Of a stretch of DNA of 35,074 bases, positions 10,075 through 25,953 are shown piece after piece. Every line of letters starts with the position of its first letter. The first letter of the stretch is position 1. This stretch comes from Methanolobus sp. (GTDB lineage Archaea > Halobacteriota > Methanosarcinia > Methanosarcinales > Methanosarcinaceae). The DNA is taken from assembly GCA_030154025.1 (NCBI GenBank), contig JASKKT010000022.1, positions 1 through 35,074 of the forward strand, written 5' to 3'. The position numbers and the translations under genes are program-made. Below the pieces are notes generated by a model. The model did no database searches and had not been told where the DNA came from. It worked only from the letters and a program-made list of their open reading frames with translations.

Positions 10075-10101
10075 AAAAAAGGCCAGTAAAAACCACTGGC
10101 C
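10075..10101 (-). terminator. Stem-loop plus U-run terminator downstream of the mtbA-family gene
   Basis: On the - strand GGCCAGT (10101-10095) pairs perfectly with ACTGGCC (10087-10081) across a 7-nt loop, followed immediately by six T residues (10080-10075). This is a textbook intrinsic-type terminator for the methyltransferase transcript, whose gene ends 157 nt upstream. Confidence 0.7.
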
Positions 10102-10191
10102 AGGGATGGATGGAGGTAGATAGTCTGGCGAAGACCCAGGTGAAGTGCATCTTTTAGCTACAAGTCCAATCTCCCCCAGAATGCAAAAATA

Positions 10192-10246
10192 ATGCTCCGG
10201 GCAGCTGGTGACCAAGAACATGAAAGAATTGATTGGCCCGGAACAT
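10192..10246 (-). other. 11-bp stem with 33-nt loop just after the mtbA-family stop
   Basis: ATGCTCCGGGC (10192-10202) pairs with GCCCGGAACAT (10236-10246) with one G-U pair. The structure begins 12 nt after the stop codon on the transcribed strand. It has no U-run, so an mRNA-stabilising 3' structure is more likely than a terminator; the true terminator lies further on at 10101-10075. Confidence 0.5.
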
Positions 10247-10257
10247 TACCTTTGATC

Positions 10258-11277
10258 TTAATATTTATGGCTCTTTGCCATCTCGACCATTGCCTGCAGG
10301 TTCTTTGTAGGTGTCTTGCTGACGATACCGCATCCGGGTGCCAGCACTCCCACGCCTGCGTCCAGTACTTTCTGTGATGCAGCCTTTACAAGCTCGGGAT
10401 CCTTGTTCCAGAGCACGTTTACAGGGTCCAGGTTGCCTACGATAACGGCTTTGTCCACCTTGCCCACAGCGGTTGCAACGTCCACATTCTGGTCAACACT
10501 GATTGCATCGACACCACTGGATTCCATAAGCTCAAGGCCGCTTGTTGTGTCACCGCAGATGTGGAGTACGGTCGTCACACCAAGCTCGCGCATTGCATCG
10601 GCTATCTTCTTGTGTGCCGGGACCACGAATTTCTCGTAGAATTCATCTCCTATGAGTTGTGCGCTGGCTGTGGGGTCAATGATGACCATTGTATCGGCAC
10701 CGTTCTCAGCCATCTTCTTTGCATAGGCTATGTTGAACTCTGTTGTGAGGTCCATGAGGGCCATTCCAAATGCCTCGTCGGTCATGATAGCCATGAACCA
10801 GTCATCGCCGTTCATGTGCTGGGCAAGGGAGAAGGGACCCAGCATGCTGCCCATGATGGGGAGCTCCTTGCCATACTTATCTGCGAGGATCCTGATAGCA
10901 TCACAGACAACACTGACCCTGCCCTGGTTCAGGTCATATTCCCTGAGTTTCTCGATATCGCTCATATCCTTTACCACATGACCGACAACGGATGGCTGCT
11001 GCTCTTTTGTACCGGGCTTGATCTGGCATCCAAAGAACTCTGCCTCGGCAGTGATGTCAAAGGGCACACGCACTGCCTCAAAGCCAACTTGCTTATGTCC
11101 TGCCTCGGCAAGTGTTGCCATCTTCTGGGCATCTTCATTAGCTTCAGGCCAGGAAGCGCCGCATGCTTCCATCTGCTCTACGGTTGCAGTCTGTGTGAAA
11201 GAGACTGCAGGCATCCTATCCACGTCCTTTCCTGTAAGTGCACGTGCCAGTCTCTCCTTTGGGGTGTATGTAACCAT
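10258..11277 (-). CDS. mtbA: Methylcobamide:coenzyme M methyltransferase, MtbA family
   Basis: A 339-residue UroD-fold zinc methyltransferase (MT2) that moves the methyl group from a methylated corrinoid protein to coenzyme M. The zinc ligands are visible as His239 and Cys241 in VLHICGD and Cys316 in LAPGCGI. The N-terminus [25 protein letters not shown] and the C-terminal KSHKY match what I recall of methylamine-specific MtbA better than methanol-specific MtaA. MtsA of Methanosarcina barkeri is a close relative and cannot be excluded. AGGAG lies 9 nt before the ATG. It lies 221 nt downstream of a corrinoid protein gene on the same strand, but a hairpin separates them and no MtmB/MtbB/MttB gene is in the window, so the partner substrate is uncertain. 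Confidence 0.85.
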
Positions 11278-11445
11278 TTAAGTGAACTCCTGTGATAATT
11301 TGATTATTGTTATAGTGAATCCTGACTTAACGTAGGCGTATATTGATTATAGACGTTTTTTTGGTATTCCGCAGGAATCAGACATCGTTTTCTGCAAACT
11401 GCCTGTAATCCCTGCGGGAAGATGTTCTATGCTTGGTCGATGTAG

Positions 11446-11480
11446 AAAAACCAGGAACCCAGATGTGATAAACACATCTG
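11446..11480 (-). terminator. Hairpin after the standalone corrinoid gene
   Basis: CAGATGTG (11460-11467) and CACATCTG (11473-11480) form a perfect 8-bp stem with a 5-nt loop, starting 19 nt after the corrinoid stop on the - strand. A T5 run follows at 11450-11446. It could end or attenuate the transcript between the corrinoid and mtbA-family genes, giving unequal amounts of the two proteins. Confidence 0.45.
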
Positions 11481-11498
11481 TAACTCCTGTTCTGTGCC

Positions 11499-12164
11499 TT
11501 AGTTCCACCTGTTCTCAGGCAGTTCCTTTACAATCTCTTTGGCCCACTTTGCAGCTTCCATTGCATCCGGCTTGGAAGTGTCTGCTCCGATCTCTGCTGC
11601 ATAGTCCGGTGTGATGGGGGCTCCACCGACAATGATCTTGACCTTGTCTCTGATACCCTTCTCTGTGAAGCTCTTTACGATCTTCTCCATGTTGTCCATT
11701 GTGGAGGTCATGAGTGTGCTTACAGATATGACATCTGCCTTGTGTTCAATCGCAGCCTCAGTGAACTTGCCTATTGGTACGTCCTTGCCAAGATCTATGG
11801 CCTCAAAGCCCATTGCGCTCATCATGGTCTTGACAAGATTCTTACCAATGTCGTGGACATCTCCTTCTGCAGAGCCTATGACAAGGACTGCTCTCTTTGA
11901 GCCGCCCTCAGTTTTCATGTGAGGGGTAAGTACATCCATTCCGCCATACATTGCATTGGAGGCCATCAGGAGGTGGGGCATAAACGCCTGCTTTTTTTCG
12001 TATTTCTCGCCCATGATCTCCATGCCCTTTGCAAGGCCCTCGATGACCGCCATGTAAGGCTCGATGCCGGCCGCAAGTGCCTGGTTTGCCAGTTCAACAG
12101 CCTGATCCTTTTTCCCATTGACTACCGCATTCGTTAATCCGTTGATTATTTCACTTTCTTCCAT
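11499..12164 (-). CDS. Methyltransferase corrinoid protein (Mts-like)
   Basis: A 221-residue methyl carrier with a four-helix cap domain followed by a B12-binding Rossmann domain. The cobalt-binding DxHxxG motif is GDVHDIGKNLV with His104 as lower ligand, followed by SVSTLMTSTMDNM and VGGAPIT. The frame begins at 12179, but that first ATG is part of ATGGAGG, a ribosome site for the ATG at 12164, which is therefore chosen. It is strikingly similar to residues 1-221 of the fusion protein at 24049: shared GDVHDIGKNLVKTM, NMEK, GIRD, GGAP and the ending N-x-x-W. It is thus closer to that methyl-sulfide-type protein than expected for a methylamine corrinoid protein. Its promoter also shares the box found in the right-hand locus. 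Confidence 0.88.
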   Translation of the reverse strand: MEESEIINGLTNAVVNGKKDQAVELANQALAAGIEPYMAVIEGLAKGMEIMGEKYEKKQAFMPHLLMASNAMYGGMDVLTPHMKTEGGSKRAVLVIGSAEGDVHDIGKNLVKTMMSAMGFEAIDLGKDVPIGKFTEAAIEHKADVISVSTLMTSTMDNMEKIVKSFTEKGIRDKVKIIVGGAPITPDYAAEIGADTSKPDAMEAAKWAKEIVKELPENRWN

Positions 12165-12179
12165 ATAGAATGCCTCCAT

Positions 12180-12390
12180 TTTTTCTAATAGTGGTCTTTA
12201 ATGCGGAGCATGTTGGTTCTCCACTTTTTCCGCTTTTGACCATGATCTGACAATCACATTTGACTTAGGTCAATAAGATTGCAAACCACTTATCGACAAA
12301 ACATGGTATTCTGGTATACGTATATATAATAACTCATGGTAATTAGCCAATGGTATTATTATTATCAATAGCCAATTCCCCATTGAAATT
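12180..12390. other. Leader/promoter region of the corrinoid gene
   Basis: This AT-rich stretch holds the - strand promoter of the corrinoid gene (12321-12344) and a roughly 130-nt untranslated leader, assuming transcription starts about 25 nt from TATA. No gene is evident on either strand. The + strand contains the start of an open frame (from 12343) that continues into the small ORF described next. Confidence 0.5.
12321..12344 (-). promoter_or_regulatory. TATA box with shared Mts-type operator box
   Basis: Read on the - strand, this 24-nt element matches the one at 17994-18017 at 22 of 24 positions, including AATTACCAT, GTTATTAT and the terminal TATA. The core fits ATWACYNNNRGTTAT immediately upstream of TATATATA. 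It drives the standalone corrinoid gene. Confidence 0.65.
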
Positions 12391-12543
12391 ATGGATTTTG
12401 CAGGAAGCATATTCTGGAACTATGGCATATCAGAAAATCCAGGCTGGACTAAAAACAAGGCTGTTGATTATATCAAAAGCGTGAATATAACTGGAATGAG
12501 ATTCGAACTCGCTTTTACAGGATTAGATGTAGTATTAACATAA
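12391..12543 (+). CDS. Possible small or remnant ORF, 50 aa
   Basis: An ATG-to-TAA frame of 50 codons (begins MDFAGSIFWNYG, ends FTGLDVVLT) stops 15 nt before the next gene. The frame is open back to 12343 without a better start, and no ribosome site precedes the ATG, so it may be the tail of a lost gene instead of an expressed peptide. Its hydrophobic/aromatic composition is protein-like. No family is recognised. Confidence 0.25.
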   Translation: MDFAGSIFWNYGISENPGWTKNKAVDYIKSVNITGMRFELAFTGLDVVLT

Positions 12544-12558
12544 AAAGGAGTTCACTGG

Positions 12559-13299
12559 ATGTCTGAACAGCAGCTGGCGGCTTATCCGGAAACTTATATC
12601 AATTCCATAGGCATGGAGTTCGTATCGATACTCTCAGGTGAGTTCAATATGGGTTCGGTGTCTGATGAAAAAAACTGGTACAGGAATGAGCGACCACTGC
12701 ATAAGGTAAGCATAAGGAGAGCCTTTTTGCTGGGGAGATATGAAGTGACGCAAAAACAATGGACCGACATCATGGGCATCAATCCTTCCAGAATATCCGG
12801 GGATGACAGGCCTGTTGACAAGATATCCTGGAATGAGGCACGGGAGTTTATCCGAAGGCTCAATGAAAAGGAATCTACTGATAAGTACCGCCTGCCCACA
12901 GAGGCAGAGTGGGAGTATGCATGCAGGGCAGGAACAAACAGCAGGTACTCGTTCGGGGATGACGATGAAGAACTTCCTGAGTATGGCTGGTATGGTGAAG
13001 GTGAGAACGTAGGTGCGTATCCGGTAGGCCAGAAAAAACCAAATCCCTGGGGCCTGCATGATATGCATGGCAACCTGTGGGAGTGGGTGCAGGACAGGTA
13101 TCATGAGAGCTATGAAGGCGCCCCTGATGACGGCAGTGCCTGGGAACAAACTGCTGCAAATGCCAAGGTCCTGTATGTCCTGCGTGGTGGCAGCTGGATA
13201 ACTTCCGCAGTAGGCTGCCGTTCTGCGAGCCGCTATTTCTATTCACCCGATGGCCGGCGGAGCAGAAGGATAGGCCTGCGTATCGCCCGTGATCTCTAA
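12559..13299 (+). CDS. Formylglycine-generating-enzyme (FGE/SUMF1)-fold protein
   Basis: A 246-residue protein of the FGE-sulfatase family (PF03781). Motifs in order: GMEFVSILSGEFNMGS, GRYEVTQKQW, RLPTEAEWEYACRAG, NPWGLHDMHGNLWEWVQD and VLRGGSW. In true FGEs the segment after GGS carries two active-site cysteines (GGS-x2-C-x4-C). Here the first position is Thr (GGSWIT) and only the second is Cys (SAVGC). Oxidation of sulfatase cysteines is therefore doubtful, and a binding or other catalytic role is possible, as in many FGE-fold paralogues. AAAGGAG lies 9 nt before the ATG. It is divergent from the corrinoid gene and has a decayed relative at 32974-33328. Confidence 0.85.
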   Translation: MSEQQLAAYPETYINSIGMEFVSILSGEFNMGSVSDEKNWYRNERPLHKVSIRRAFLLGRYEVTQKQWTDIMGINPSRISGDDRPVDKISWNEAREFIRRLNEKESTDKYRLPTEAEWEYACRAGTNSRYSFGDDDEELPEYGWYGEGENVGAYPVGQKKPNPWGLHDMHGNLWEWVQDRYHESYEGAPDDGSAWEQTAANAKVLYVLRGGSWITSAVGCRSASRYFYSPDGRRSRRIGLRIARDL

Positions 13300-13310
13300 G
13301 CACCGGAATC

Positions 13311-15479
13311 TCAAATATTTCTGGCTATTTCGTTGGCTCCTGTGATTGCTTCCCACACCCTTCCAGGCTCTTTCGAGTCACCTGCGGAGTATATTTCAGG
13401 AGCTGCCTTCGTTTCAAGCAGTTCAAAGTAAAGTGCGTCATCTGCCTGGACTCCGGCAGCAAGTATTACCAGGTCTGTATCCAATAGGATCTCTTCCGTA
13501 TTTTCCGGACCAAGCTTCCTGTTGAATGGGTTTCTAACATTCTCAGGCATCAGAGCCCTCCATGGAGTGTAAGGTTCGCTCCTGCCGCGGTTTGCCAGTA
13601 CATGCGCCCTGCCTTCCCTGAACCTGATGACCGTGGAGGCATTGTATACCTTTAAGGGCTCCTTCAGGGCATCTTCCTTCTTCCCTGAAGGCGAGCCTCC
13701 TCCCAGCATCATCCAGAGCATCTGTCCCCTGTTGGCCATTACAGTATCCGGCATAAGGGCATCGTTCTTCCCAACGATTGTAACGTCGGCACTCTTTTCA
13801 TAAGCCAGGGAATAGCCAAGCTCACAGCCTATTATCCCGCCGCCCACAACAAGGACCTTACTGACATCTGCAGGCAGCTCCATGCCATTATCAAGCAGCT
13901 CTCTGGCTTCCATGTGCCTGACATTTTCCAGTCCTTCGATGGCAGGGATCACTGTCCTGGGGCCATTGCAGCATATTATCACATCGAATATGTCTTTGAG
14001 TTTCTCAGCCTCTGCCTCTGTATTAAGCAGGACTTTCAGCCCTTCCTCCTGCAGCAGGCCAAGCTGGTGCTCAAGATTCTCAAGATATCTCCTGATATCG
14101 TGCTTGATCACCATCCTGCCAGCCGTGCGCAATTGTCCGCCGATGCTGTCCTTCTTTTCGAAGACGGTGACCTCATGCCCTCTCCTGTGGGTTGTCATCG
14201 CAGCTTCACAACCTGCGGGCCCGGCTCCAATGACTGCAACTTTCTTGATCCTCTCAGCCCTGACAAGCTTCTTCTTTTCCTCAAAACCCGTATAGGGATT
14301 TACCGAACAGCAGGGATGCCCTCCTTTCTTGAAGGACTCGATGCACCCTTCCTGGTCCCCTATGCAATGGATGATCTCTTTTACCCTGCCCTGCCTGACC
14401 TTCTCGGGCCAGCGGGGGTCTGCCAGCAGGGGCCTTCCCAGCATCACAAAGTCGGCCCATTCGTTCTCAAGCACCATCTCAGCGCATTCCGGTTTGCCCA
14501 TCTTGCCGACAGCTATCACTTTTGCGCCGATGTTCCCTTTGCGGAAGAACTCCTTCAGGCGGCCGGCCATTTCCCTGACATATACAGCGTCATCGAAATA
14601 TGCTGGCGGATGGGGCCAGAACCAGTTCTCATAACAGCCCTTATCCACATCAAAAGCATCGACACCGGCCTCATGCAGCAGCCTGCAGAACTCTAGCCCC
14701 TCCTCGATACTTCTTTCCCTGCCGCGGAAGTGCTTCCTGAATATCTCATCCCCGTATGTTTCCTGCAATGCCTGGGTGAGATCTATCCTGTAAATGATAG
14801 GAAAATCCTCTCCACAACGCTTCCTGATCTCCCCTATCACGTCAAGGGCAAATCTTGTCTTATCCCTGTACCTCCCAAATCTTCTCCGGTTCCAGGGGTC
14901 TGATGTCAGCTGGTCCATCAGGTAGCCTTCATGGCCGTGTATATGCACCCCGTCAAAGCCGGCAGACTTTGCATTGGCGGCGCACTGCCCGAAACTGCTG
15001 ACTATCTTCCTTATGCTCCTGTCGGAAAAAGGGACATGTGGTATCTGGGGAACGTAGAAGTTCCTGTTCCACGAGGATGACCTCAGTATCTTCCCTTTAA
15101 GCGCTGCCTCAGGGGAGCCTACCCTCCCGAGTCCTGCGGTCAGCTGGATGAATATCTTCGCCCCGTAAGGCCTTACTCCTGCAGTGAGGTCCCTCCATCC
15201 TGAAAGCCGGGTCCGTGACGTGCCGTCTATCCGGGGAAAGTATGAGGTGTCATTATCTTCAGAGACCGTGGGATCTATTCCGAAAGAGACCGGCACAAGC
15301 CCGGTTATAAGAAGCCCTGCTCCTCCCTTCGCCCTCTCAATGAAATACTCTATCATCTTATCAGAAGGCCGGCCGGCAGGATCTGCCATGTTGATATTGC
15401 CCATGGGAGCCATGATTATCCTGTTGACTAGCCTGCAGTTACCTATTGTGTCAGGCTCGAAGAGTTTTTCAAAAGCCAT
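13311..15479 (-). CDS. Old Yellow Enzyme/2,4-dienoyl-CoA reductase-like flavoprotein
   Basis: A 722-residue enzyme with an FMN TIM barrel (about 1-360), an iron-sulfur segment (372-391) and a C-terminal FAD/NAD(P) domain (VAVIGAGPAGCEAA at 414-427, then VLVVGGGIIGCELG). This is the layout of FadH, trimethylamine dehydrogenase and related reductases. In FadH-like proteins the cluster motif is C-x2-C-x3-C-x11-C. Here Cys372, Cys379 and Cys391 keep the spacing, but the second position is Asp375 (CIGDQEGC). The barrel motif usually HGAHGYL is HGHEGYL (181-187), so the catalytic pair may also be changed. The start is supported by AGTGAT before the ATG. Substrate unknown; it is convergent with the FGE-fold gene and follows msrA on the - strand. 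Confidence 0.85.
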   Translation of the reverse strand: MAFEKLFEPDTIGNCRLVNRIIMAPMGNINMADPAGRPSDKMIEYFIERAKGGAGLLITGLVPVSFGIDPTVSEDNDTSYFPRIDGTSRTRLSGWRDLTAGVRPYGAKIFIQLTAGLGRVGSPEAALKGKILRSSSWNRNFYVPQIPHVPFSDRSIRKIVSSFGQCAANAKSAGFDGVHIHGHEGYLMDQLTSDPWNRRRFGRYRDKTRFALDVIGEIRKRCGEDFPIIYRIDLTQALQETYGDEIFRKHFRGRERSIEEGLEFCRLLHEAGVDAFDVDKGCYENWFWPHPPAYFDDAVYVREMAGRLKEFFRKGNIGAKVIAVGKMGKPECAEMVLENEWADFVMLGRPLLADPRWPEKVRQGRVKEIIHCIGDQEGCIESFKKGGHPCCSVNPYTGFEEKKKLVRAERIKKVAVIGAGPAGCEAAMTTHRRGHEVTVFEKKDSIGGQLRTAGRMVIKHDIRRYLENLEHQLGLLQEEGLKVLLNTEAEAEKLKDIFDVIICCNGPRTVIPAIEGLENVRHMEARELLDNGMELPADVSKVLVVGGGIIGCELGYSLAYEKSADVTIVGKNDALMPDTVMANRGQMLWMMLGGGSPSGKKEDALKEPLKVYNASTVIRFREGRAHVLANRGRSEPYTPWRALMPENVRNPFNRKLGPENTEEILLDTDLVILAAGVQADDALYFELLETKAAPEIYSAGDSKEPGRVWEAITGANEIARNI

Positions 15480-16289: not shown

Positions 16290-16616
16290 TTGCCTGGAAG
16301 AGAAAACAGATATGCTGACGATTTAACCCGTGATGACAGGTATTCATTCGAACTGCAGAGGAGAGGAGTCAATAAACAGTTCTATGATGCCAACAGGATG
16401 CTTCTCTGTCCAGAGTGTGGCACATCGTTCAATCTGTTCTATTCAAGAGCAAAATACTGTAACGACTGTCCTAAGTTAATGAGAGGTTGCGAGCTTGCAC
16501 GCTGTACTCACTGTCATACAGAGTTCCCTCTTAAGGGCACAATGTCTAAAACCTCATCGAGGACAACATCAAACTACATTGAATCTGTAGTCAAACGTTA
16601 TCATGATACATTTTAA
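16290..16616 (+). CDS. Small zinc-ribbon protein
   Basis: A 108-residue protein starting at TTG 16290, chosen because GAGGTG lies eight bases upstream. The basic/acidic N-terminus (residues 1-35) is followed by cysteines at 40, 43, 57, 60, 67, 72 and 75. They form a CxxC-x13-CxxC zinc ribbon plus a CxxC-type third pair (CTHCHTEF). The tail is Ser/Thr-rich and basic. Proteins of this type often bind nucleic acid or serve as small redox/zinc adaptors. It is divergent from msrA with its own TATA-like stretch (GTTATATATAT near 16233). No named family is recognised. Confidence 0.65.
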   Translation: MPGRENRYADDLTRDDRYSFELQRRGVNKQFYDANRMLLCPECGTSFNLFYSRAKYCNDCPKLMRGCELARCTHCHTEFPLKGTMSKTSSRTTSNYIESVVKRYHDTF

Positions 16617-17011: not shown

Positions 17012-17794
17012 ATGAAAGCTGAACTGATCAGTACGGTGTTCCTATCGGAAAAGCGGAAAAATACCCTTCTTATGTTAATGGACAAGCCGGCTACCATTGA
17101 CGAGATAAAGGATTCCCTGACAGGCACCACCAGTGCTATCATGGCCCAGGTGAAGATATTGCTTGAACAGGGACTCATCGAGCAGAGGTCTGATGAGTAC
17201 AGGCTTACTTATATTGGCAGGATCATCCTTAAGAAAACAAAGCCTCTCATAGAAGCTCTCAATGTGCTCGAGGAGAACAAGGAGTACTGGGAAAGCAGGG
17301 ATATGAGCGCCATTCCTGAGCATCTTCTCGACAGGATAGGGGAACTTGGGAAAGTGATAGTTCATGAGTCTGACCTTAACCACCTGTTCGAACCACCCAA
17401 GGAACTGTGTCTGAGCCTTAAGCAGTCAAAGAAAGTGTCTACATTTTATTCTTATTTTTGCCCGACATGTCCTTATAATTATTCTGAGCTTGCAAGGAAG
17501 GAAACTGACTTTGACCTGATACTGACCAACTCTGTCTATACAAGGCTGAAAGAAGAATACACGGATCAGTACGATGCTATGATGAGTTCCAGGAACTCAA
17601 ACCTCTATGTCTGCAAGGATGATGCAATCAGGCTGGGTGCCCTCTCAGTCACTGATAACATGATGCTGCTTTCTTTTTTCAATACCCAGAGGATATTTGA
17701 CCACAAAAAGCTGCTCTGTTTCGATGAGAGTGCCCGCGTATGGGGCAGGGACCTCTTTGAAGAATACAAACAGATGGCTGATAAGGTCAAATAG
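17012..17794 (+). CDS. Msr-type transcriptional regulator 1 (winged helix + DUF1724)
   Basis: A 260-residue DNA-binding regulator. Residues 1-75 form an ArsR-like winged helix (LSEKRKNTLLMLMDKPATIDEI, recognition region TTSAIMAQVKILLEQGLI). Residues about 85-255 match the DUF1724 domain of methanogen Msr regulators, which control methanol and methyl-sulfide methyltransferase genes in Methanosarcina acetivorans. A CPTC pair (Cys150/Cys153) in the sensor domain could respond to redox or bind metal; the second regulator of this locus lacks it. GAGGATAT precedes the ATG. It is about 800 nt upstream of ramA 1 and probably regulates promoters in this locus, perhaps via the shared operator-like box. 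The target is an inference. Confidence 0.85.
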   Translation: MKAELISTVFLSEKRKNTLLMLMDKPATIDEIKDSLTGTTSAIMAQVKILLEQGLIEQRSDEYRLTYIGRIILKKTKPLIEALNVLEENKEYWESRDMSAIPEHLLDRIGELGKVIVHESDLNHLFEPPKELCLSLKQSKKVSTFYSYFCPTCPYNYSELARKETDFDLILTNSVYTRLKEEYTDQYDAMMSSRNSNLYVCKDDAIRLGALSVTDNMMLLSFFNTQRIFDHKKLLCFDESARVWGRDLFEEYKQMADKVK

Positions 17795-18060
17795 ACTTTC
17801 CTAAGACTGGATCTACATACTCAATTATATTATTACAGTACCTTTTTCCAGATTAATACTGTTGATTTTATCAAAGGGGTCTATCTCCCTTCTACCAATG
17901 TTTTCCCGTCTCTGCTGAATAATGCATACATCATGTGTACAATCTATACTTGGCAAGGATGACACCGGTTCGATAATACCTATACAGTTGATAAATTACC
18001 ATAAGTTATTATTTATATCTATGTAGCAATAGCATGATTGCCCGTATAAGGGTGAAGTAG
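17795..18060. other. Regulatory region with TTGATTTTATCAA palindrome and promoter
   Basis: This 266-nt gap holds no gene. It contains TTGATTTTATCAA (17862-17874; arms TTGAT/ATCAA), repeated at 18370-18382, a GTTGATAAATTACC motif (17987-18000) also found before the fusion gene (23945-23958, one difference), and the promoter at 17994-18017 of the following small ORF. Confidence 0.5.
17994..18017 (+). promoter_or_regulatory. Promoter of the small ORF with shared operator box
   Basis: The element reads AATTACCATA, then AGTTATTATTTATA. It matches the corrinoid promoter (12321-12344, - strand) at 22 of 24 positions and the ramA 1 promoter at 20 of 24. The last 15 nt are identical to 18474-18488. 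Transcription would start around 18040, followed by GGGTGA and the ATG at 18061. Confidence 0.65.
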
Positions 18061-18156
18061 ATGCAGAAAAACATTCACTACGATTGGGTCAATCCAGACT
18101 ACCTCCATTATACAGTGAATTACACTTCCCTAACATTCTGCGCAACTGCATGCTGA
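18061..18156 (+). CDS. Small ORF, 31 aa, ending inside a hairpin
   Basis: The frame begins MQKNIHYDWVNPDYLHYT and ends with FCATAC. It has its own TATA promoter (18011-18017), a GGGTGA ribosome site (18050-18055) five bases before the ATG, and a stop codon that lies at the tip of a perfect 10-bp hairpin. The peptide is rich in Tyr, Asn and Cys and matches nothing I recognise. It could be a real small protein, or the ORF could be a translated leader controlling the downstream hairpins. Promoter, ribosome site and hairpins occurring together argue against chance, but coding is unproven. Confidence 0.45.
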   Translation: MQKNIHYDWVNPDYLHYTVNYTSLTFCATAC

Positions 18157-18220
18157 TAGCATGCAGTGCACTACTTCCATTTGCAAGGCCCGTTCTCCAC
18201 AACCTATAGGGCCTTGCAAA
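18145..18220 (+). ncRNA. Tandem strong hairpins (candidate structured RNA)
   Basis: Two perfect inverted repeats follow each other. ACTGCATGCT (18145-18154) pairs with AGCATGCAGT (18158-18167) over a 3-nt loop, and TTTGCAAGGCCC (18180-18191) pairs with GGGCCTTGCAAA (18209-18220) over a 17-nt loop. No U-run follows, so simple termination is unlikely. They could form the 3' part of a small RNA transcribed from the promoter at 17994-18017, or a stabilising structure. Confidence 0.5.
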
Positions 18221-18464
18221 ACAATAATGCACCTGACAATATTGAATACCTTTTTATGTGATAGGGTTCTTCGATTATTATGCATTATTTAGTTGCCCGT
18301 ACTTATGTAATATATGGGCATGTAAACTCGATTGTCTTTACATCTCTTCCTTCGATAAAATCAAAGCTATTGATTTTATCAAACGTTTTAATCTGAAGTT
18401 AACGGCGTTAAAATCAACCACGTTATTTTTCCTATTGCTGTTGATAATATCATAGGTTCAATCT
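18221..18464. other. Spacer before the ramA 1 promoter, with a perfect inverted repeat
   Basis: AT-rich and without a convincing gene. It contains GATAAAATCAA (18354-18364) and TTGATTTTATC (18370-18380), a perfect 11-bp inverted repeat with a 5-nt spacer, and a further TTAAAATCAA half-site at 18409-18418. These look like operator half-sites upstream of ramA 1. Confidence 0.5.
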
Positions 18465-18488
18465 TATTACTTGAAGTTATTATTTATA
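18465..18488 (+). promoter_or_regulatory. Promoter of RamA paralogue 1 with shared operator box
   Basis: The sequence reads TATTACTTGA followed by AGTTATTATTTATA, the same arrangement of ATTAC, 4-nt spacer, AGTTAT and TATA as at 17994-18017. Transcription would start near 18510, leaving a leader of about 95 nt before the gene at 18605. Confidence 0.6.
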
Positions 18489-18604: not shown

Positions 18605-20248
18605 ATGTATGGTATTGCAATAGATCTTGGCACAAGTGGTTTTCGTTTGCAGCTCATAGACCTTGAATCAAGGAGTGTCATTAAGACCATAATGACGATG
18701 AAGCATCCTCTCCCCGGTGGGAATGTCATCGATCACCTTGGTTTTGCCATCCAGGTGGGTGGGGACATTGCAAATAAGATCATTATCCATACACTCCAGC
18801 AGATGTTCGATATGCTTCCTGTCCCTCCCGAGGATGTCAGGAGAATTGCGGTGTGCGGTAATCCTATCCAGCTTTCCCTGTTCCAGAATATCGAGATAAG
18901 GGACCTTGCATATGCCGGTAAGAACATGCAGCAAAGGCTTGGTATTGGCGAAGTGAAGAGAGGCCTGAAAGTTTACGATGCTACCGGGATCTTCGGGAAA
19001 TCCTCCGGGCTGGACAATTGTGATCTGATTGTACTGCCATCCATAGAACATGAGATAGGGGCGGATGCCCTTGCCATGATGGTCAAGACGGATTTCGTGG
19101 AACAGGATGGAATATCCCTTGTAACTGATTATGGGACTAATGCCGAGATGGCACTCAAGGTGAATGGTCGCATAATCACATGCAGTGCCGCGGCAGGTCC
19201 GGCTATCGAGGGACAGGGTATAAAATGCGGCATGCTTGCAAGCCCTGGTGCGATATCCGATGTGAATGAAGAGAAGGGTATGTGGAGGCTCACCGTCCTG
19301 GATGAACGCATGGATGGCAGGAAAAGCCATCTGATCGATCCTCTTACCGGTATCATCTTTGAGAAGGGTGAGATCTCTCCCGAGGGTATCACAGGCACAG
19401 GCGTCATCTCAGCCATCTCGCTTGCAATGAGCATGGGTCTTATCAGGACACTGCCTCACCTCCCCAACGGAAAGCTTATCCTGGGTGAAGGGGTTGAGAT
19501 CAGCGATAAGGATATCGAGGAGGCTGGAAAGGCTATCGGGGCCATCCGGGCTGCTCACATGACGCTTCTTGTTGAATCGGGGCTCGGGTTCGAGGACCTT
19601 GAGTATATGTACATGTCAGGTGCCTCGGGAACTTATGTAGATGCGGACAAGGCAAGGAGGATAGGCCTTGCACCCAGGTTCGCAAAAAAGATAGTCCAGT
19701 TCGGAAACACATCTCTGGAGCTGGCAAAGGATGTTGTGCTCGGGAACTATGATCTGCAGGAGATACAGGAACTTGCTGACAGGATAAAAGCAGACCATAT
19801 AATGCTGGCTTCCAATGAAACCTTCAAGAATATCTATGCCTGCGAGCTTGCATACTGGACCGAGGGCATGCCGGAAGACGTATATAATACCATCCTTGAA
19901 TCCTATGATATGCCCCGGATGCCCCTACTGGAGCTTACACCATTCTTCCAGAAAAGGGTCAGAAAGGACATCTCAAGTTCAGAGTCCACCGGTATCGAGA
20001 TCATGCAGAACATGAGCACCATCATAGAGGAAGAGTCTTCCGGATGCATGGGGTGCGGGATATGCGAGAGAGAGTGCCCTGAAAAAGCCATCAAAATAAT
20101 CAATAAGAACGGAAGTCTGTTCGCAGGATATACGGCTCATCTCTGTCTGGGTATGAGCTGTAAAAGATGCATAAGGATATGCCCGGCCAAGGCGATCCGT
20201 TACAGAGAGATAAGACCTGTGTCCAGTGAGGATCTGTCTGTACTCTGA
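18605..20248 (+). CDS. ramA: RamA-type corrinoid protein reductive activase, paralogue 1
   Basis: A 547-residue homologue of RamA, which uses ATP to reduce inactive Co(II) corrinoid proteins to active Co(I). The ASKHA-type domain starts with GIAIDLGTSGFRLQLIDL. It continues through AVCGNPIQLSLFQN, RDLAYAGKNMQ, VTDYGTNAEMAL, SAAAGPAIEGQGI and IVQFGNTSLELA, all conserved in RamA. The C-terminus carries two [4Fe-4S] motifs: CMGCGICERECP and, after CLGMSC, KRCIRICP. GGAGG lies eight bases before the ATG. It is a single-gene unit with its own promoter. It is closely related to the second copy at 30801, so one may serve the fusion protein and the other a different corrinoid protein. The symbol here denotes the family. 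Confidence 0.9.
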   Translation: MYGIAIDLGTSGFRLQLIDLESRSVIKTIMTMKHPLPGGNVIDHLGFAIQVGGDIANKIIIHTLQQMFDMLPVPPEDVRRIAVCGNPIQLSLFQNIEIRDLAYAGKNMQQRLGIGEVKRGLKVYDATGIFGKSSGLDNCDLIVLPSIEHEIGADALAMMVKTDFVEQDGISLVTDYGTNAEMALKVNGRIITCSAAAGPAIEGQGIKCGMLASPGAISDVNEEKGMWRLTVLDERMDGRKSHLIDPLTGIIFEKGEISPEGITGTGVISAISLAMSMGLIRTLPHLPNGKLILGEGVEISDKDIEEAGKAIGAIRAAHMTLLVESGLGFEDLEYMYMSGASGTYVDADKARRIGLAPRFAKKIVQFGNTSLELAKDVVLGNYDLQEIQELADRIKADHIMLASNETFKNIYACELAYWTEGMPEDVYNTILESYDMPRMPLLELTPFFQKRVRKDISSSESTGIEIMQNMSTIIEEESSGCMGCGICERECPEKAIKIINKNGSLFAGYTAHLCLGMSCKRCIRICPAKAIRYREIRPVSSEDLSVL

Positions 20249-20318
20249 TCCTCTTTACAACTCTTTGGACCCAAATAGGCCAAGGTTGGAACGGCTGAAC
20301 TGAATATAAACAAGGGGC

Positions 20319-20330
20319 AAATATATATCT
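20319..20330 (+). promoter_or_regulatory. TATA box of the sensor kinase gene
   Basis: AAATATATATCT lies about 33-44 nt before the kinase ATG, so the transcript would be leaderless or have a very short leader. This fits the absence of a ribosome binding site before 20363. The shared operator box is not present here. Confidence 0.5.
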
Positions 20331-20362
20331 ATAAATGCCTATACTTTCCTCGGTCAAAAAAT

Positions 20363-22879
20363 ATGGTTGGACAATTAAATCAAAAAATCAGCATGGACTC
20401 CATCATCAATAGCAGTCCTATCATTGTGATCTCAAGGAAGGTCGAAAAGGATTTTCCTGTCAGGTTCGTATCCAACAATATAAGACAGTTCGGCTATATA
20501 CCTGAAGATTTCTATTCAGGGGAACTTAAATACGCTGATCTTATCCACCCGGATGACCGCAAAGTCGTTCTTAAAGCTTTCAAGTACCTGAACAAGCAGC
20601 TTTCCGACTTTGTCCAGGAATACAGGATAATTACCAGGTTCGGTGAGACACGCTATGTAGAGGACAGGGTTCACATAAGAACATATGACCCTGAAAATGT
20701 GCATATTGAAGGCACCATTCTGGATATCACTGAACGTAAGCATCATGAAATGATCAAACACCAGAAGAACGCAACCAATGGGAAGCCTCTCACAGAGCTG
20801 TCCCTTGAGGATGTTCTCGGAATGCTGGTCACCAATGCAGAGAAGGTTCGTTCCGGCCTTACATGTGCAGTTATGCTGCTGGACAAGAAAAAGCAGTACA
20901 TATGCCGTGTGATCGCACCGAATCTTCCTTTGTTCTTCAAGGAAGCCATGGAAGGCCTTGAGATAGGTTATGGGGTATGCTCCTGCGGCACTGCGCTCTA
21001 CATGGGTGAAAGGGTCATCGTTGACAATATAGAAGAGCATCCGTACTGGTCAAGGCACAGGGAAGTTGCGGAGAAGGCTGGTATAAGGGCCAGCTGGGCC
21101 GAGCCAATAGTGTCCTCCGCTGGTGAAATACTTGGTGTTTTTATCATGTATTTCGATGTTCCCTACGAACCGAAAAAAGCATGCTTCAAATACCTTAAGG
21201 CAAACGCGGACCTGGCAGCCATAGAGATAGAGCACAGGATTGTGAATGAGACATTCAGGGAGTCCGAGCACAAGTTCAAGACAATTTTCAACAATATCAA
21301 TGACCAGATCTATGTCAGTGAACTCAACGGAAACCTTATAGATGTGAACCAGGTGGTTGTTGACAGTCTTGGCTACTCAAAGGATTATATCTTAAGAAGT
21401 TCTCCTATGGATATCGTGCCTTCCTGGTACGTACAGCGTGCCTCAGAACTGATCAAGGTCATTGAGAGAGAACGCAAGGCCATGTATGAAGCTGCAGCTA
21501 TAAGGAAAGATGGCTCTGTCATACCCCTGGAGATAAATGCACGCATGATCGAGTACAATGGTAAGAAGACCATTCTTTCTGTTGCACGTGATATCACAGA
21601 ACGTAAGAAGGCTGAGAAGGCAAAACGGCTGAACGAAGCCCGTCTTGAGGCACTGATCAAGCTCAATGAGATGACAGCTGCTTCCCTGGATGAGATCGCC
21701 GAATTTGCAAAAGAAGAAGCTGTCCGCCTTACAGAAAGCAAACTTGGGTATCTTGCATTCATGAACGCTGATGAGACTGCCCTCATAATGCATTCCTGGT
21801 CAAACTCGGCAATGGCTGAGTGCGGGATCAGTGACAAGCATTTCATTTATCCTATTAAGACCACCGGCTTATGGGGTGAAGCCGTAAGGCAAAGGAAGGC
21901 TATCATCACAAATGACTACTCTGCTCCCAGTGAGCTGAAGAAGGGATATCCAAAAGGTCACGTCGAGCTTGTAAGGCATATGAATGTTCCTATATTCGAC
22001 GGCGATCACATTGTTGCAGTGGCAGGTGTCGGTAATAAGGACGAGGATTATGACGAGTCCGATGTCCGCCAGTTAACGCTTCTTATGCAGGGTATGTGGA
22101 AGCTGATCCAGTCAAAACAACTGATCGGTGCCCTTAGCAAATATTCCGAAGAACTGTCCAAGGCAAACACGGAACTCCGGTCCGTCAATCTGATCAAAGC
22201 AGAGTTCCTTGCAGAGAGCATAAAGAAAGGTCATGACCCGTTGCACGGTTACGATGTGTTCGATGATGAGACATTGAACCTGCTGGATGATTCACAAAAA
22301 GAGGCGATCTCCACATTACTGAGAAACTCGGAAAGACTGAAGCGTCTTATAGACACGGTCCTGTACAGCAATCTGCAGCAATCAGGTAAGATTGAATACA
22401 GTTTTTTACCAGTTAACCTTGGCAGTGTCCTGTCCGATGCACTGCTTAACATGATCCTGCAGATAGATGAAAAGGAGCTTTCACTGGAGAAATCAATACC
22501 TTCAGGGCTTCCTCTGGCAAGGGGTGACAAGGCAAAGCTTACCGAGATGTTCGTTTATCTCATCCACAATGCTATCAATATAACTCCCAAAGGTAATAGT
22601 ATAGGTGTCGGGATCTCGGCAGATGATGGTTACCTGCATGTGACCATAACGGATACCGGAGAAGGTATCGAGAAGGATCTCATCCCTCATCTGTTCAATA
22701 AGATGTACCAGGTGGAGGATTCGATCACAAGGATGTACCAGGGCCTTGAATCAAGTCTCTACATATGTAAGGATACTGTGGTCGCGCACCATGGAAACAT
22801 CTGGGTTGAAAGTGAGATCGGGCAGGGAAGTACGGTCCATGTGAAGATCCCGAAATGGGGTGGAATGGAACAGATTTAG
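20363..22879 (+). CDS. PAS-GAF-PAS-GAF sensor kinase (MsmS/RdmS-like)
   Basis: An 838-residue cytoplasmic sensor without membrane segments. Order: PAS (about 10-130, ending DITERK), GAF (145-295, with CSCGTA and SWAEPIVS), PAS (305-420, ending DITERKKAEKA), GAF (430-585, with GLWGEAVRQRKAIITNDY and VAGVGNKDEDYDESD), a dimerisation region (610-670) and an ATPase domain (720-830; IHNAINITP, DTGEGI). The layout and the location beside Mts-type and Msr genes match MsmS of Methanosarcina acetivorans, a haem-based redox/dimethyl-sulfide sensor with haem bound to a Cys in the second GAF domain. Cys487 (AMAEC) is the only GAF2 Cys here. The canonical H-box His is replaced by Lys621, and the glycine-rich lid is poor (QGLESSLYI). 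A hairpin follows the gene. Confidence 0.85.
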   Translation: MVGQLNQKISMDSIINSSPIIVISRKVEKDFPVRFVSNNIRQFGYIPEDFYSGELKYADLIHPDDRKVVLKAFKYLNKQLSDFVQEYRIITRFGETRYVEDRVHIRTYDPENVHIEGTILDITERKHHEMIKHQKNATNGKPLTELSLEDVLGMLVTNAEKVRSGLTCAVMLLDKKKQYICRVIAPNLPLFFKEAMEGLEIGYGVCSCGTALYMGERVIVDNIEEHPYWSRHREVAEKAGIRASWAEPIVSSAGEILGVFIMYFDVPYEPKKACFKYLKANADLAAIEIEHRIVNETFRESEHKFKTIFNNINDQIYVSELNGNLIDVNQVVVDSLGYSKDYILRSSPMDIVPSWYVQRASELIKVIERERKAMYEAAAIRKDGSVIPLEINARMIEYNGKKTILSVARDITERKKAEKAKRLNEARLEALIKLNEMTAASLDEIAEFAKEEAVRLTESKLGYLAFMNADETALIMHSWSNSAMAECGISDKHFIYPIKTTGLWGEAVRQRKAIITNDYSAPSELKKGYPKGHVELVRHMNVPIFDGDHIVAVAGVGNKDEDYDESDVRQLTLLMQGMWKLIQSKQLIGALSKYSEELSKANTELRSVNLIKAEFLAESIKKGHDPLHGYDVFDDETLNLLDDSQKEAISTLLRNSERLKRLIDTVLYSNLQQSGKIEYSFLPVNLGSVLSDALLNMILQIDEKELSLEKSIPSGLPLARGDKAKLTEMFVYLIHNAINITPKGNSIGVGISADDGYLHVTITDTGEGIEKDLIPHLFNKMYQVEDSITRMYQGLESSLYICKDTVVAHHGNIWVESEIGQGSTVHVKIPKWGGMEQI

Positions 22880-22900
22880 TGTTCGGCTAAGTGATCAGAG

Positions 22901-22924
22901 AACCCATTGCCTAAAGGATGGGTT
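22901..22924 (+). terminator. Hairpin after the sensor kinase
   Basis: AACCCAT (22901-22907) pairs perfectly with ATGGGTT (22918-22924) around a 10-nt loop, followed by ATTCTTTG. It starts 21 nt after the kinase stop. It may terminate or attenuate transcription before the second regulator. Confidence 0.5.
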
Positions 22925-22955
22925 ATTCTTTGCTAGGTGTGCTTGAGGTGATAGT

Positions 22956-23753
22956 ATAAAGCTTGCTCTTCTGGGAACGATTTTTCTATCAGACAAAAGA
23001 ATGGACCTGCTTCTCTTGCTGATAGAAAGGCCTATGTGCATGGAAGAGATCAAAAACACGCTTAATGTGACAACAAGTGCAATGATGACACAGATCAAAA
23101 TATTGATAGATCAGGGACTAGTCGTCTATGAGAATGATCTGTATAAGCTGTCACACTTCGGCGAGGTCATTGTCAGGAAAATAGTTCCTCTGGTTGACAC
23201 CCTGAAGGTTTATTCTGATAACATTGAATACTGGGAAGCCCATAATTTCAGTGCCATACCCTCCTACCTGCAGGACCGGGTAGATGAGCTTGGTGAATGT
23301 GAACTGATAGAACCTGACCTTAACCGCATGTATGAACTGCCCCTGAAACTGGAGACCAGTCTTGAAAAAGTAAGTTCTATAAGGGAAGTATCTTCATATT
23401 TCAGTCCTGCATATCCTTCTAAATATCTCGGGCTTGCAAGAAAGGGAGTTGATATCTGCCTTATCGTATCTGCACCTGTCTTTGAGCGACTAAGGAATGA
23501 ATACAGCCCCGTCCTTGAGGAGTTCTTAAGAATGGATAACGTTGAAATCTATGTTCATGCTGATGCCATCGGTCTTGCTTCCTGCATAGCGACTGACAAA
23601 TTCCTTTCCTTCTCGCTTTTTTTCAGGAACGGCATATATCATAACCATGCAATGATGAGCTGTGACGAAAGAGCTCTTAAGTGGGGTAACGATCTTTTTG
23701 ATTATTTCAAATCCAAATCGTGGCGTGTAGAGAGAATACAGTCTGCTTTATAA
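22956..23753 (+). CDS. Msr-type transcriptional regulator 2 (apparent ATA start)
   Basis: A winged-helix plus DUF1724 regulator of the same family as the one at 17012 (shared FLSDKR, EEIKN, TTSAMMTQIKILIDQGL, EYWE, FSAIP, ARKG, ALKWGNDLF). The first ATG is at 23001, but that would delete the first helix. In frame upstream, codons from ATA at 22956 (ATA AAG CTT GCT...) align residue for residue with the start of regulator 1 (IKLALLGTIFLSDKR against MKAELISTVFLSEKR), and GAGGTGAT (22945-22952) stands directly before it. So ATA is either an unusual start codon or a mutated ATG. The sensor domain lacks the CPTC pair of regulator 1 (it reads SPAYP). A terminator follows, then the fusion-gene promoter region. 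Confidence 0.8.
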   Translation: MKLALLGTIFLSDKRMDLLLLLIERPMCMEEIKNTLNVTTSAMMTQIKILIDQGLVVYENDLYKLSHFGEVIVRKIVPLVDTLKVYSDNIEYWEAHNFSAIPSYLQDRVDELGECELIEPDLNRMYELPLKLETSLEKVSSIREVSSYFSPAYPSKYLGLARKGVDICLIVSAPVFERLRNEYSPVLEEFLRMDNVEIYVHADAIGLASCIATDKFLSFSLFFRNGIYHNHAMMSCDERALKWGNDLFDYFKSKSWRVERIQSAL

Positions 23754-23760
23754 GCTTGCT

Positions 23761-23797
23761 GATCCCCTTTTTATGTAAATGGTAGGGGTCAATTTTT
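23761..23797 (+). terminator. Terminator after regulator 2
   Basis: GATCCCC (23761-23767) pairs with GGGGTC (23785-23790) with one bulged T, followed by AATTTTT. It begins eight bases after the stop codon. Confidence 0.6.
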
Positions 23798-23817
23798 AGG
23801 TATTGCTGATTAAACAC

Positions 23818-23941
23818 GTTAATCTGATTAATGTTATTAATCATATGAACGCTCTTTTCCTCATTAACTGTAGCTGTTGTATGAATTACTGGTAACATGA
23901 TTAACCATGTTAACACATCCCCGGGCATTCATAATATTAAC
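23818..23941. promoter_or_regulatory. Array of RTTAAY motifs with two palindromes
   Basis: Seven copies of RTTAAY occur in about 125 nt (starts 23818, 23827, 23836, 23863, 23900, 23909, 23936). Some are embedded in the palindromes GATTAATGTTATTAATC (23826-23842) and TAACATG/CATGTTA (23893-23899 and 23906-23912). They lie just upstream of the fusion-gene promoter and look like a multi-site regulator-binding region. Confidence 0.45.
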
Positions 23942-23951
23942 ATCGTTGATA

Positions 23952-23975
23952 AATAACCCCGGGTTATGCTATATA
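23952..23975 (+). promoter_or_regulatory. Promoter of the fusion methyltransferase operon with palindromic operator
   Basis: A perfect palindrome ATAACCCCGGGTTAT (23953-23967) abuts the TATA element CTATATAC (23970-23976). It fits the same ATWACYNNNRGTTAT-plus-TATA pattern as three other promoters in the window (16-18 of 24 positions). Transcription would start near 24000, which excludes the GTG at 23995 as start codon. Confidence 0.65.
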
Positions 23976-24048
23976 CAATAATTTCCTACTCTCTGTGTCA
24001 ATAGTAGACAGTAAATCGCTATTGAAAAAAATAAATTGGAGGTATATT

Positions 24049-25953
24049 ATGGAAGCTGCTATTCTGAACAAATTAGCGGAAGCTGTAGTTGAAGGCGATG
24101 AAGAGCTTGCACAGGAACTTGCGCAGAATGTCATCGATGAAGGATTAGATCCCTACGAGGCAATTGTAGATGGCCTGGCCAGGGGAATGATGATAATCAG
24201 TGACAAGTATGAAAAGGGAGAAGCATTCGTCCCGCATCTGCTTATTGCTTCAGGAGCAATGTATGCAGGCATGGATATCCTAAGCCCTGCAATGAAGAAA
24301 GCAGGATCTAACGAAGCTGCTGTTGGAGTAATTGGCAGTATTGAGGGTGATGTGCATGATATAGGCAAGAACCTTGTCAAGACAATGCTCTCTGCATCAG
24401 GTTTCAAGATGATCGACCTGGGTGCGGACACACCTGTGGAGAAGTTTGTCGAGGCTGCCAAAGAGCATAAAGCAGACCTTATTTCCATGAGCGCTTTGAT
24501 GACAACCACCATGGTGAACATGGAAAAGGTCATTGAGATGCTTCAGGAAGAAGGCATACGCGACTCCCTGAAAGTAATGATCGGCGGAGCACCGGTGTCG
24601 GAAGAATTTGCAAAGCAGATCGGGGCTGACTCGACCCATGCAGATGCAATGCATGCAAGCCACTGGGCAAGTGAGAGCGTAAAGCAGTTAGAACCTAACC
24701 AGATAAGGTGGACCCAGGAGAAGGTAAGCCTTGGTAAAGTGAAGTACAGGGAACAGCTCTCTAAAAAGAAGGTAAAGGGCAAGACTGATATCGGACTGGA
24801 AACTGCCAGGCAGATTATCGAAGAGTTCGAAAAGGTCGGTGTCAAGTCAAAAGAGCAGATGACCCACATGGACAGGACCCTGGCTGCAATGGGGGACAAG
24901 AAAGTCGACAGGCTGCCTGTATATCCGCTTGCCTGCGGTATCATGAGGAAGTTTGCCAACCAGAACTACAAGCAGTATGCGACCAGTCCCAATGCATTTG
25001 TGGAAAGTGCATTCCTTGGGTCCAAATATCTGGACACAGACATGTTCGTTGGACTGATCGACCTTTCAGCCACTTCCTCTGACTTTGGCTGCAAGATCAA
25101 GTACCCTGAAGATGATACTCCTTCCTCTGAAGGCCACCTTAAGAGTTACGAAAACCTTGAAACCCCTGAGGTCAAAGAAGGGACCCGCGCATATGAACTT
25201 ATAATGGCATCAAAAGCAGCAACTGAGAAACTGAACAAGGAACTGAACACTCCTTTTGTTGGTTTCCATGAGGGGCCACTTCTCACCCTTACCCAGCTCA
25301 TGGGTGCAGATAGAGTGCTTATGGATATGAAGACCCACCCGGATGTTGTGCTTGAGGCTTTGCAGAAATGTACAGATTATATCTGCCAGGTATCCGAGCT
25401 CTTCTTTGAAGAGAATGCCTGCAACGCCTTGTGTATAGACAACCTCTGGTCCAACAACGTTATCATGAGCGAAGAGGACTACTGGAAGTTCGACGGTAAG
25501 TTTGTCTATGACCAGCATCTGCCTCTCTTCAAAAAGTACGACCAGCCCTACATAATCCACAACTGCGCCGATGCAGTGCACTTTGACACCCAGATCAAGA
25601 AGTTTGGTACAAAACTGTACAGCTACGCATACTATCCGAAGCAGAGAAGCAAGGGATCCCAGAACTATGCAGACCTTATTCCCAAGTACGGTGACATGTG
25701 CTGCATGATGGGTGAGATCAACCCCATAGACTTTATGGACAACTCAGCCAGTGGCGTCCAGAAGATCCGGACTGATACAAAGTCTTTGCTTGAAGGTGTC
25801 CTCCCCGTGCTCAAGGAGAACGGACTGCAGTCCAAGTATGTAATGTCTTCAGGATGTGAGATCCCGCCAGGAGGACCGCTGAACACTGTCAAGGCTATGG
25901 TGGACACGGTCAAGGAACTTGGTCCGCAGCTGCAGAAAAGTGTTATTGGATAA
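24049..25953 (+). CDS. Fused corrinoid protein/methylcobamide:CoM methyltransferase (Mts type)
   Basis: A 634-residue fusion. Residues 1-220 are a corrinoid protein with GDVHDIGKNLV (His103 as cobalt ligand). Residues 220-270 form a charged linker. Residues 270-634 are a UroD-fold methyltransferase with zinc ligands His504 and Cys506 (IIHNCAD) and Cys603 (SSGCEIP). This architecture is that of MtsD/MtsF/MtsH of Methanosarcina acetivorans, which carry out methyl transfer between methyl sulfides and coenzyme M in one polypeptide. The frame extends to a GTG at 23995, but GGAGGT at 24038-24043 and the predicted transcription start favour the ATG at 24049. A terminator-like hairpin follows, so this first gene may be made in excess over the accessory genes behind it. 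Substrate (methanethiol, dimethyl sulfide or another) is inferred. Confidence 0.88.
   Translation: MEAAILNKLAEAVVEGDEELAQELAQNVIDEGLDPYEAIVDGLARGMMIISDKYEKGEAFVPHLLIASGAMYAGMDILSPAMKKAGSNEAAVGVIGSIEGDVHDIGKNLVKTMLSASGFKMIDLGADTPVEKFVEAAKEHKADLISMSALMTTTMVNMEKVIEMLQEEGIRDSLKVMIGGAPVSEEFAKQIGADSTHADAMHASHWASESVKQLEPNQIRWTQEKVSLGKVKYREQLSKKKVKGKTDIGLETARQIIEEFEKVGVKSKEQMTHMDRTLAAMGDKKVDRLPVYPLACGIMRKFANQNYKQYATSPNAFVESAFLGSKYLDTDMFVGLIDLSATSSDFGCKIKYPEDDTPSSEGHLKSYENLETPEVKEGTRAYELIMASKAATEKLNKELNTPFVGFHEGPLLTLTQLMGADRVLMDMKTHPDVVLEALQKCTDYICQVSELFFEENACNALCIDNLWSNNVIMSEEDYWKFDGKFVYDQHLPLFKKYDQPYIIHNCADAVHFDTQIKKFGTKLYSYAYYPKQRSKGSQNYADLIPKYGDMCCMMGEINPIDFMDNSASGVQKIRTDTKSLLEGVLPVLKENGLQSKYVMSSGCEIPPGGPLNTVKAMVDTVKELGPQLQKSVIG

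Follow-up and report, generated by a model that had tools for sequence, protein, structure and literature searches.

A candidate antisense RNA gene next to ramA in Methanolobus, with predicted pairing sites in the mtaC message

We conclude with good confidence that a stretch of a Methanolobus contig, lying between a FilR1-type regulator gene and ramA, encodes a trans-acting antisense RNA, ~180-220 nt long, that would block translation of mtaCB, the operon for methanol:corrinoid methyl transfer. The whole piece of DNA that was analysed, 35,074 nucleotides in length, is called the window here. The conserved structure and place of the RNA, the promoter element that it shares with other genes, and its complementarity to mtaC at three sites are all computed from genome sequences. 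Methylotrophic methanogens can grow on methanol, methylamines, methyl sulfides and other compounds and select among them. Their methanol methyltransferase is under post-transcriptional control. With a candidate RNA, its exact predicted pairing sites and its co-regulated genes now named, the control of mtaCB becomes directly testable.

Structure and distribution of the RNA

The RNA lies immediately 3' of a gene for a FilR1/Msr-type regulator (17012-17794, plus strand; PF08350, 115.7 bits, and synteny), and its 3' neighbour is ramA, which encodes the corrinoid-protein reductive activase (18605-20248, plus strand; TIGR04270, 729 bits against a cutoff of 500). Regulator, RNA and ramA occupy one strand and do not overlap. 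We predict that the RNA gene extends over 18036-18255 (plus strand), with its start placed by the spacing from the TATA element at 18008-18017 and its end by the first T-run at 18251-18255. Directly 5' of the regulator, the gene of a 108-aa protein (16290-16616) with weak zinc-ribbon similarity below cutoffs is kept in all 16 genomes that carry the RNA and in one that does not (G003).

A first-pass annotation of the window had described in this place a TATA promoter identical over 15 nt to that of ramA, a GGGTGA ribosome site, a 31-codon open reading frame with its stop in a 10-bp hairpin's loop, and a further hairpin, of 12 bp, that no U-run follows. All of these pieces are present. The 15-mer AAGTTATTATTTATA occurs at 18003-18017 and again at 18474-18488 ahead of ramA; GGGTGA, the candidate ribosome site, is at 18050-18055; the frame runs on the plus strand from the ATG at 18061 to the TGA ending at 18156 and encodes the peptide MQKNIHYDWVNPDYLHYTVNYTSLTFCATAC. 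Its stop codon overlaps the 3-nt loop of the 10-bp hairpin (18145-18167), and the 12-bp hairpin has arms at 18180-18191 and 18209-18220 around a 17-nt loop, with no U-run directly 3' of it (the nearest TTTTT is the one at 18251-18255). The annotation overlooked the closing stem, an inner stem, the full 30-nt promoter match, the sequence conservation and the conserved unpaired motifs.

Folding of the segment 18025-18235 gave -69.4 kcal/mol, compared to -45.2 +/- 4.2 kcal/mol for shuffled sequences (z -5.75; 0 of 200 as good). The structure predicted in the window contains the following plus-strand helices. The closing stem P1 (18054-18177) joins GAAGTAG at 18054-18060 to CTACTTC at 18171-18177 and is seen from pairing and covariation, while the inner stem (18062-18141), which joins TGCAGAA at 18062-18068 to TTCTGC at 18136-18141, comes from folding and is found only in the group of four RNAs that we call clade A. 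The 10-bp hairpin is likewise a result of folding, with compensatory changes within clade A, and the 12-bp 3' hairpin, SL3 (18180-18220), carries an invariant loop motif and is seen from covariation in the remaining 12 RNAs, clade B.

A DNA search of 60 genomes returned matches in 12. Three genomes of the same genus, besides that of the window, match over most of the stretch (83, 81 and 76%) and hold it in the identical place between a FilR1-type regulator and ramA; in the others the match is confined to ~30 nt of promoter. A related element was found upstream of ramA in 16 of the 18 closest RamA loci (L016-L033, the two without it being L032 and L033), and in each of the 16 elements the invariant loop motif TCTCCACA stands 282-411 nt upstream of ramA. 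We then relied on a covariance model, R1, built from 12 of the 16 RNAs; the four clade-A RNAs, that of the window included, were omitted because their core pairs differently. Among 111 genomes of the family, R1 matches 16, all of them within the 27 Methanolobus genomes and with one copy each, and it matches none of the 84 family genomes outside the genus under stricter filters, through which weak members may escape. The window itself scores 41.2 bits at 18056-18224. The 22 loci containing the regulator include 11 named carriers, for example Methanolobus vulcani PL 12/M, M. bombayensis, M. profundi and M. halotolerans. No Rfam 15 family matches at its gathering score, the best weak match (E 0.18) being to a microRNA model far under its cutoff.

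Covariation of the stems and conservation in close relatives had been set beforehand as tests. In clade B the four helices comprise 33 pairs, with 87.8% of cells paired, and for 15 of the 33 pairs at least one sequence has both partners altered; 0 of 500 shuffles reached this count or the covariation score, and sliding the partner strand as a control lowered pairing to 34-45%. In SL3 of this clade 93.9% of cells are paired and both partners have changed in 5 of 11 pairs; for the equivalent of P1 the figure is 3 of 6. Clade A keeps the closing stem and the 3' hairpin and re-pairs the middle; its P1 is paired in all four sequences, with one pair changed on both sides. On the test of conservation the hairpins are kept in relatives and the peptide is not: conservation attaches to base pairing and antisense motifs rather than to an amino-acid sequence.

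A promoter element shared with corrinoid methyl-transfer genes

The promoter match extends to a 30-nt element at 17988-18017 (plus strand; the shared copy spans 17984-18018), an operator-like box followed by the TATA, with 0 mismatches to TTGATWAATTACYWYAAGTTATTATWTATA, for which 0.00 chance matches are expected in the window. When a matrix derived from the 16 RNA promoters was applied to the loci of all 16 carriers, each had strong sites at two positions, one ahead of the RNA and one ahead of the corrinoid-protein gene; the stretch retrieved for G003 has none. In the window, one copy precedes the corrinoid-protein gene at 11499-12179 (12320-12354, minus strand; matrix score 33.7), and a weaker copy precedes a corrinoid/URO-D fusion gene at 23995-25953 (23942-23976, plus strand; score 28.8); locus L075 has a site at the gene that corresponds to the latter. 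Clade A has a weaker site at ramA, which in the window scores far below the strong ones.

A genus-wide scan detected the element in 17 of 27 genomes, with 1-4 sites in each and 0 matches in the backward control. These 17 are all 16 carriers plus G003, the latter with one weaker site. A further site, inspected in nine loci, stands before the gene of a ~371-aa protein, one orthologue of which is a URO-D-family methyltransferase (Pfam, 124 bits). Sharing of the element with corrinoid and URO-D genes places the RNA in a small corrinoid methyl-transfer regulon, and the element is likely the operator of the FilR1-type regulator. The surrounding cluster has as conserved members mtbA (curated model), an OYE-like flavoprotein, ramA and a PAS/GAF histidine kinase. 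As further observations on this cluster (6849-15479 and 18605-25953), the OYE-like flavoprotein is 722 aa in size and an aldehyde dehydrogenase is also encoded; no substrate methyltransferase was recognised within these bounds, and neither Pfam nor NCBIfam gave a match at 0.001 for the 286-aa protein encoded at 9129-9989.

Predicted pairing with the mtaC start and leader

Genes of the same locus (the corrinoid gene, the regulator, ramA, mtbA and the OYE gene) were tried as targets and rejected, their duplex scores lying near shuffled levels (mean z -1.25 to +0.25); the target search was therefore widened to whole genomes. When eight genomes were scanned for GGARGTAG shortly 5' of an ATG, one gene recurred. 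A curated model identifies its product as MtaC, the corrinoid protein of the methanol system (453 bits; cutoff 420), and mtaB follows 4 nt downstream. The start of this mtaC reads GGAGGUAGAAU(U)AGAUGGAURUAGACCC in all 25 genomes that have it, as counted after 5 of 30 loci were dropped, these holding a paralogous mtaC in which no start was recognised.

Three regions of the RNA are unpaired yet conserved, namely GGGUCUAU, UCUACYUCC and the 3' loop UCUCCACA, and each has a predicted partner in mtaC. Motif 1 in the window, GGGTCA (18086-18091, plus strand), contains GGGTC, complementary to GACCC in codons 4-5, and its next base is mismatched in the window's genome; in general form, GGGUCUAU pairs with AUAGACCC. 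Motif 2, CTACCTCC (18099-18106, plus strand), is complementary to the mtaC Shine-Dalgarno sequence GGAGGTAG, with which UCUACYUCC is predicted to pair. Motif 3, the loop TCTCCACA (18194-18201, plus strand), is the antisense of TGTGGAGA, which belongs to a predicted hairpin in the 5' leader of mtaC; there UGUGGAG (TGTGGAG in DNA) lies 106-125 nt 5' of the Shine-Dalgarno sequence in all 25 leaders. The three motifs match mtaC in antiparallel order: leader hairpin, Shine-Dalgarno, codons 3-5. Both the leader-loop and the Shine-Dalgarno matches hold in 16 of 16 carriers, and motif 1 is fully paired in 10, with a mismatch in six, the window's genome included. Mean unpaired probabilities are 0.96-1.00 for the loop, 0.52-0.99 for UCUACYUCC and 0.23-0.72 for GGGUCUAU, the motif-1 segment being thus only partly free in the predicted folds; means for the whole RNA are 0.37-0.49.

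Duplexes between the RNA core and the mtaC start of the same genome reached -22 to -32 kcal/mol in all 16 carriers (-29.8 kcal/mol for motifs 1 and 2 of the window RNA), and in each carrier none of 156 other gene starts, and none of 300 shuffles, was as low. The loop motif forms 8-10 bp with the leader at -12.9 to -16.2 kcal/mol, again in 16 of 16. Background gene starts and leaders were drawn from ~16-kb stretches with crude start calls. Among 153 other leaders none has both the CUACYUCC and the CUCCACA match, and GACCC is absent from the first 25 coding bases of all 153. The 6-mer of motif 1 is undiscriminating by itself, in that ~100-130 of 154 background leaders have one such motif when G-U pairs are allowed.

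Pattern searches led back to the same gene. A search with the spaced pair UGUGGAG...GGAGGUAG recovers this mtaC from 25 of the 27 genus genomes with 0 control matches there, and gives single matches in seven genomes of other genera, in sequence unlike the leader. Genus-wide, GGAGGTAGN{8,16}AGACCC has 42 matches, which include mtaC in 25 of 27 genomes; eight of the 17 others are a short mtaC-like mini-ORF. From the side of the RNA, GGGTCTATN{2,8}CTACYTCC occurs in 7 of 111 family genomes, five of these matches being the known RNA and two (L157, L158) having no loop motif nearby. The target sites in mtaC are nearly invariant, so that covariation between RNA and target is unusable as proof of pairing. 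The leader is, moreover, equally conserved in genomes without the window-type RNA, which argues that it is not shaped by that RNA alone.

This conservation needed explaining, and we therefore scanned for CUACYUCC close to CUCCACA, which was found in 22 of 27 genus genomes. In all 22 (L243 and 21 loci) the site lies 116-188 nt 3' of a long frame with a common MtaB-like ending. One such frame is MtaB by a curated model and lies downstream of a paralogous mtaC, "mtaC-b" (mtaC-a, -b and -c are labels coined here). A long conserved stem, structurally unrelated to the window RNA, presents the site in its loop, which is almost perfectly antisense to the start of the first mtaC; in most genomes this second RNA contains GGGUC...CCAUCAAUUCUACCUCC...CUCCACA. 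Its duplexes with the mtaC start reach -27.5 to -38.4 kcal/mol in 22 of 22 genomes compared, with 0 of 200 shuffles as low in each. Against mtaC-a as the target counts that the start of mtaC-c, a gene without the leader loop, comes close to it in pairing energy in two of the six genomes compared (G004 and G024, -23.1 and -23.2). A shorter target segment was used in this comparison, which makes the mtaC-a energies weaker than in the carrier test. That two different scaffolds present the same three motifs is the strongest argument that these motifs are target sites; a triad of antisense motifs common to two structurally different RNAs would be unusual.

Related elements occur in two more places. 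On the minus strand of the window the mtbA 3' UTR holds a related antisense motif, GGGTCTTCGCCAGACTATCTACCTCC (10112-10137), followed by a hairpin with a T-run; within this UTR (10095-10240) the CTACCTCC motif is accompanied by CTGGCCAGTGGTTTTTACTGGCC-TTTTTT, a hairpin of terminator-like form. Of the code, this element carries the part directed at the Shine-Dalgarno sequence; as CUACCUCC 5' of the terminator-like hairpin, it is present in 10 of 12 genomes inspected, these 12 being the loci out of 17 with a recognisable mtbA and 3' flank (five were dropped). Eight of the 27 genomes have the mini-ORF, whose start resembles that of mtaC. In L147-L150 it begins M(D/E)IDPMPLIPxYYF behind an mtaC-like ribosome site, and a GUGGAG hairpin loop lies upstream of it in three of these four loci (L148-L150, from G008, G013 and G014). 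The RNA of the mini-ORF may be a decoy.

Alternative readings and known archaeal small RNAs

The suggestion of the first-pass annotation, a small protein or dual-function RNA in the methyltransferase regulon, stands as to an RNA gene in the regulon, given the covarying structure, the fixed place in 16 genomes and the promoter element shared with corrinoid-protein and URO-D methyltransferase genes. It does not stand as to the protein. An open frame with a plausible ribosome site exists in the window's genome, but the frames of the three closest relatives have 19, 32 and 7 codons instead of 31, are shifted and start with TTG or GTG, and the stretch has diverged in clade B; conservation tracks base pairs and antisense motifs; we rejected the frame as a gene, and a 31-aa protein gene or dual-function RNA is extremely unlikely. 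It is also very unlikely that the RNA belongs to the ramA mRNA as its 5' part and serves as a cis-acting riboswitch or attenuator of ramA alone. Its strand and its constant position directly 5' of ramA would fit such a leader, as would the pairing of some ramA starts with the core via their Shine-Dalgarno sequence (mean z -1.01), but ramA has a separate TATA-like element 87-125 nt before its start and 3' of the RNA in 16 of 16 carriers (18474-18488, plus strand, in the window), no Rfam riboswitch matches, and the three-site match is to mtaC and not to ramA.

Two further readings accept an RNA that acts in trans. Each of eight genomes has 21-45 copies of GGARGTAG shortly upstream of an ATG, and ACCUCC resembles the 16S rRNA anti-Shine-Dalgarno, so that an RNA with a general anti-Shine-Dalgarno function, aimed at many messages and not at mtaC in particular, might be imagined. 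We regard this as quite unlikely, since the matches to codons 3-5 and to the leader loop coincide at mtaC, and the 42 genus-wide matches of the GGAGGTAGN pattern described above include mtaC in nearly every genome. An RNA that pairs with mtaC and activates or stabilises it, or that mainly titrates another RNA, is unlikely as well, if somewhat less so. The contact with the leader hairpin lies far 5' of the start, where pairing could refold the leader, and mtaC leaders are described as long and stabilising in a cold-adaptive methanogen (PMC5378194). Two of the three sites nevertheless cover the Shine-Dalgarno sequence and the first codons, where pairing is expected to block initiation, as is reported of sRNA162 (PMC3510493).

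Repression of mtaCB translation in trans is thus the most economical reading, and we infer from the sequences that the RNA is transcribed, pairs with its target in the cell and represses it. When the neighbouring corrinoid-dependent methyl-transfer regulon is on, the RNA would be made from the same type of promoter as the corrinoid protein and the URO-D methyltransferase. Its 3' loop UCUCCACA would touch the hairpin loop UGUGGAG in the leader of the mtaC mRNA, after which the inner motifs would clamp the Shine-Dalgarno sequence (CUACYUCC on GGAGGUAG) and codons 3-5 (GGGUCUAU on AUAGACCC) and keep ribosomes from starting on mtaCB. In this way the RNA probably turns methanol use off while another methylated substrate is eaten.

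On a wider view, to which we give slightly better than even chances, the leader of mtaCB-a, the main methanol operon, is a hub read by several unrelated RNAs through one three-part code: the window RNA, made with the regulon of a competing methyl substrate; the RNA at the 3' end of mtaCB-b, in 22 of 27 genomes; and the element in the mtbA 3' UTR, with the mini-ORF maybe a decoy. Together they would form a hierarchy of substrates and isozymes. If true, methylotrophic methanogens would have such a hierarchy based on RNA, and a methanol message on which several RNAs converge would represent a type of RNA circuit that is rare in archaea.

Like archaeal trans-acting sRNAs, the window RNA is non-coding (as judged in the three closest relatives), has a conserved structure and is complementary to a distant mRNA start in 16 of 16 carriers; the conserved promoter element in front of it and the separate TATA-like element of ramA could give it a transcript of its own, and read-through into ramA may still occur. 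sRNA41 of Methanosarcina mazei is reportedly an archaeal RNA that masks the ribosome sites of metabolic operons; it differs in organism group and target, a contrast drawn from its description. Methanolobus psychrophilus has 195 reported sRNAs (PMC5378194). Within the literature covered, we found no RNA regulator that targets mtaC or mtaCB directly.

The closest comparison is with sRNA162 of Methanosarcina mazei. This RNA masks a ribosome site and affects the switch between methanol and methylamine, and a genetic test of it gave lower mtaC1B1 mRNA, among others (PMC3510493). The same source cites post-transcriptional control of methanol methyltransferases (PMC3510493), the enzyme family of the target predicted here. 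Similar to sRNA162, which is ~190 nt long, the window RNA has stem-loops around an unpaired pairing region and a regulator gene adjacent to it, and it is predicted to block a ribosome site in trans (PMC3510493). It may work like sRNA162. As to kinship, R1, a model of the window-type RNA, finds nothing under strict filters in the 84 family genomes outside the genus, and the gene arrangement differs. The 5' part of the window RNA, unlike that of sRNA162 or sRNA171, is not antisense to a neighbour's 5' UTR, as regulator, RNA and ramA share one strand. Finally, sRNA162 is directed at the mRNA of a regulator and at its neighbour's antisense 5' UTR (PMC3510493), whereas the predicted target of the window RNA is a catabolic operon, mtaCB, contacted at three colinear sites that include a loop-loop contact.
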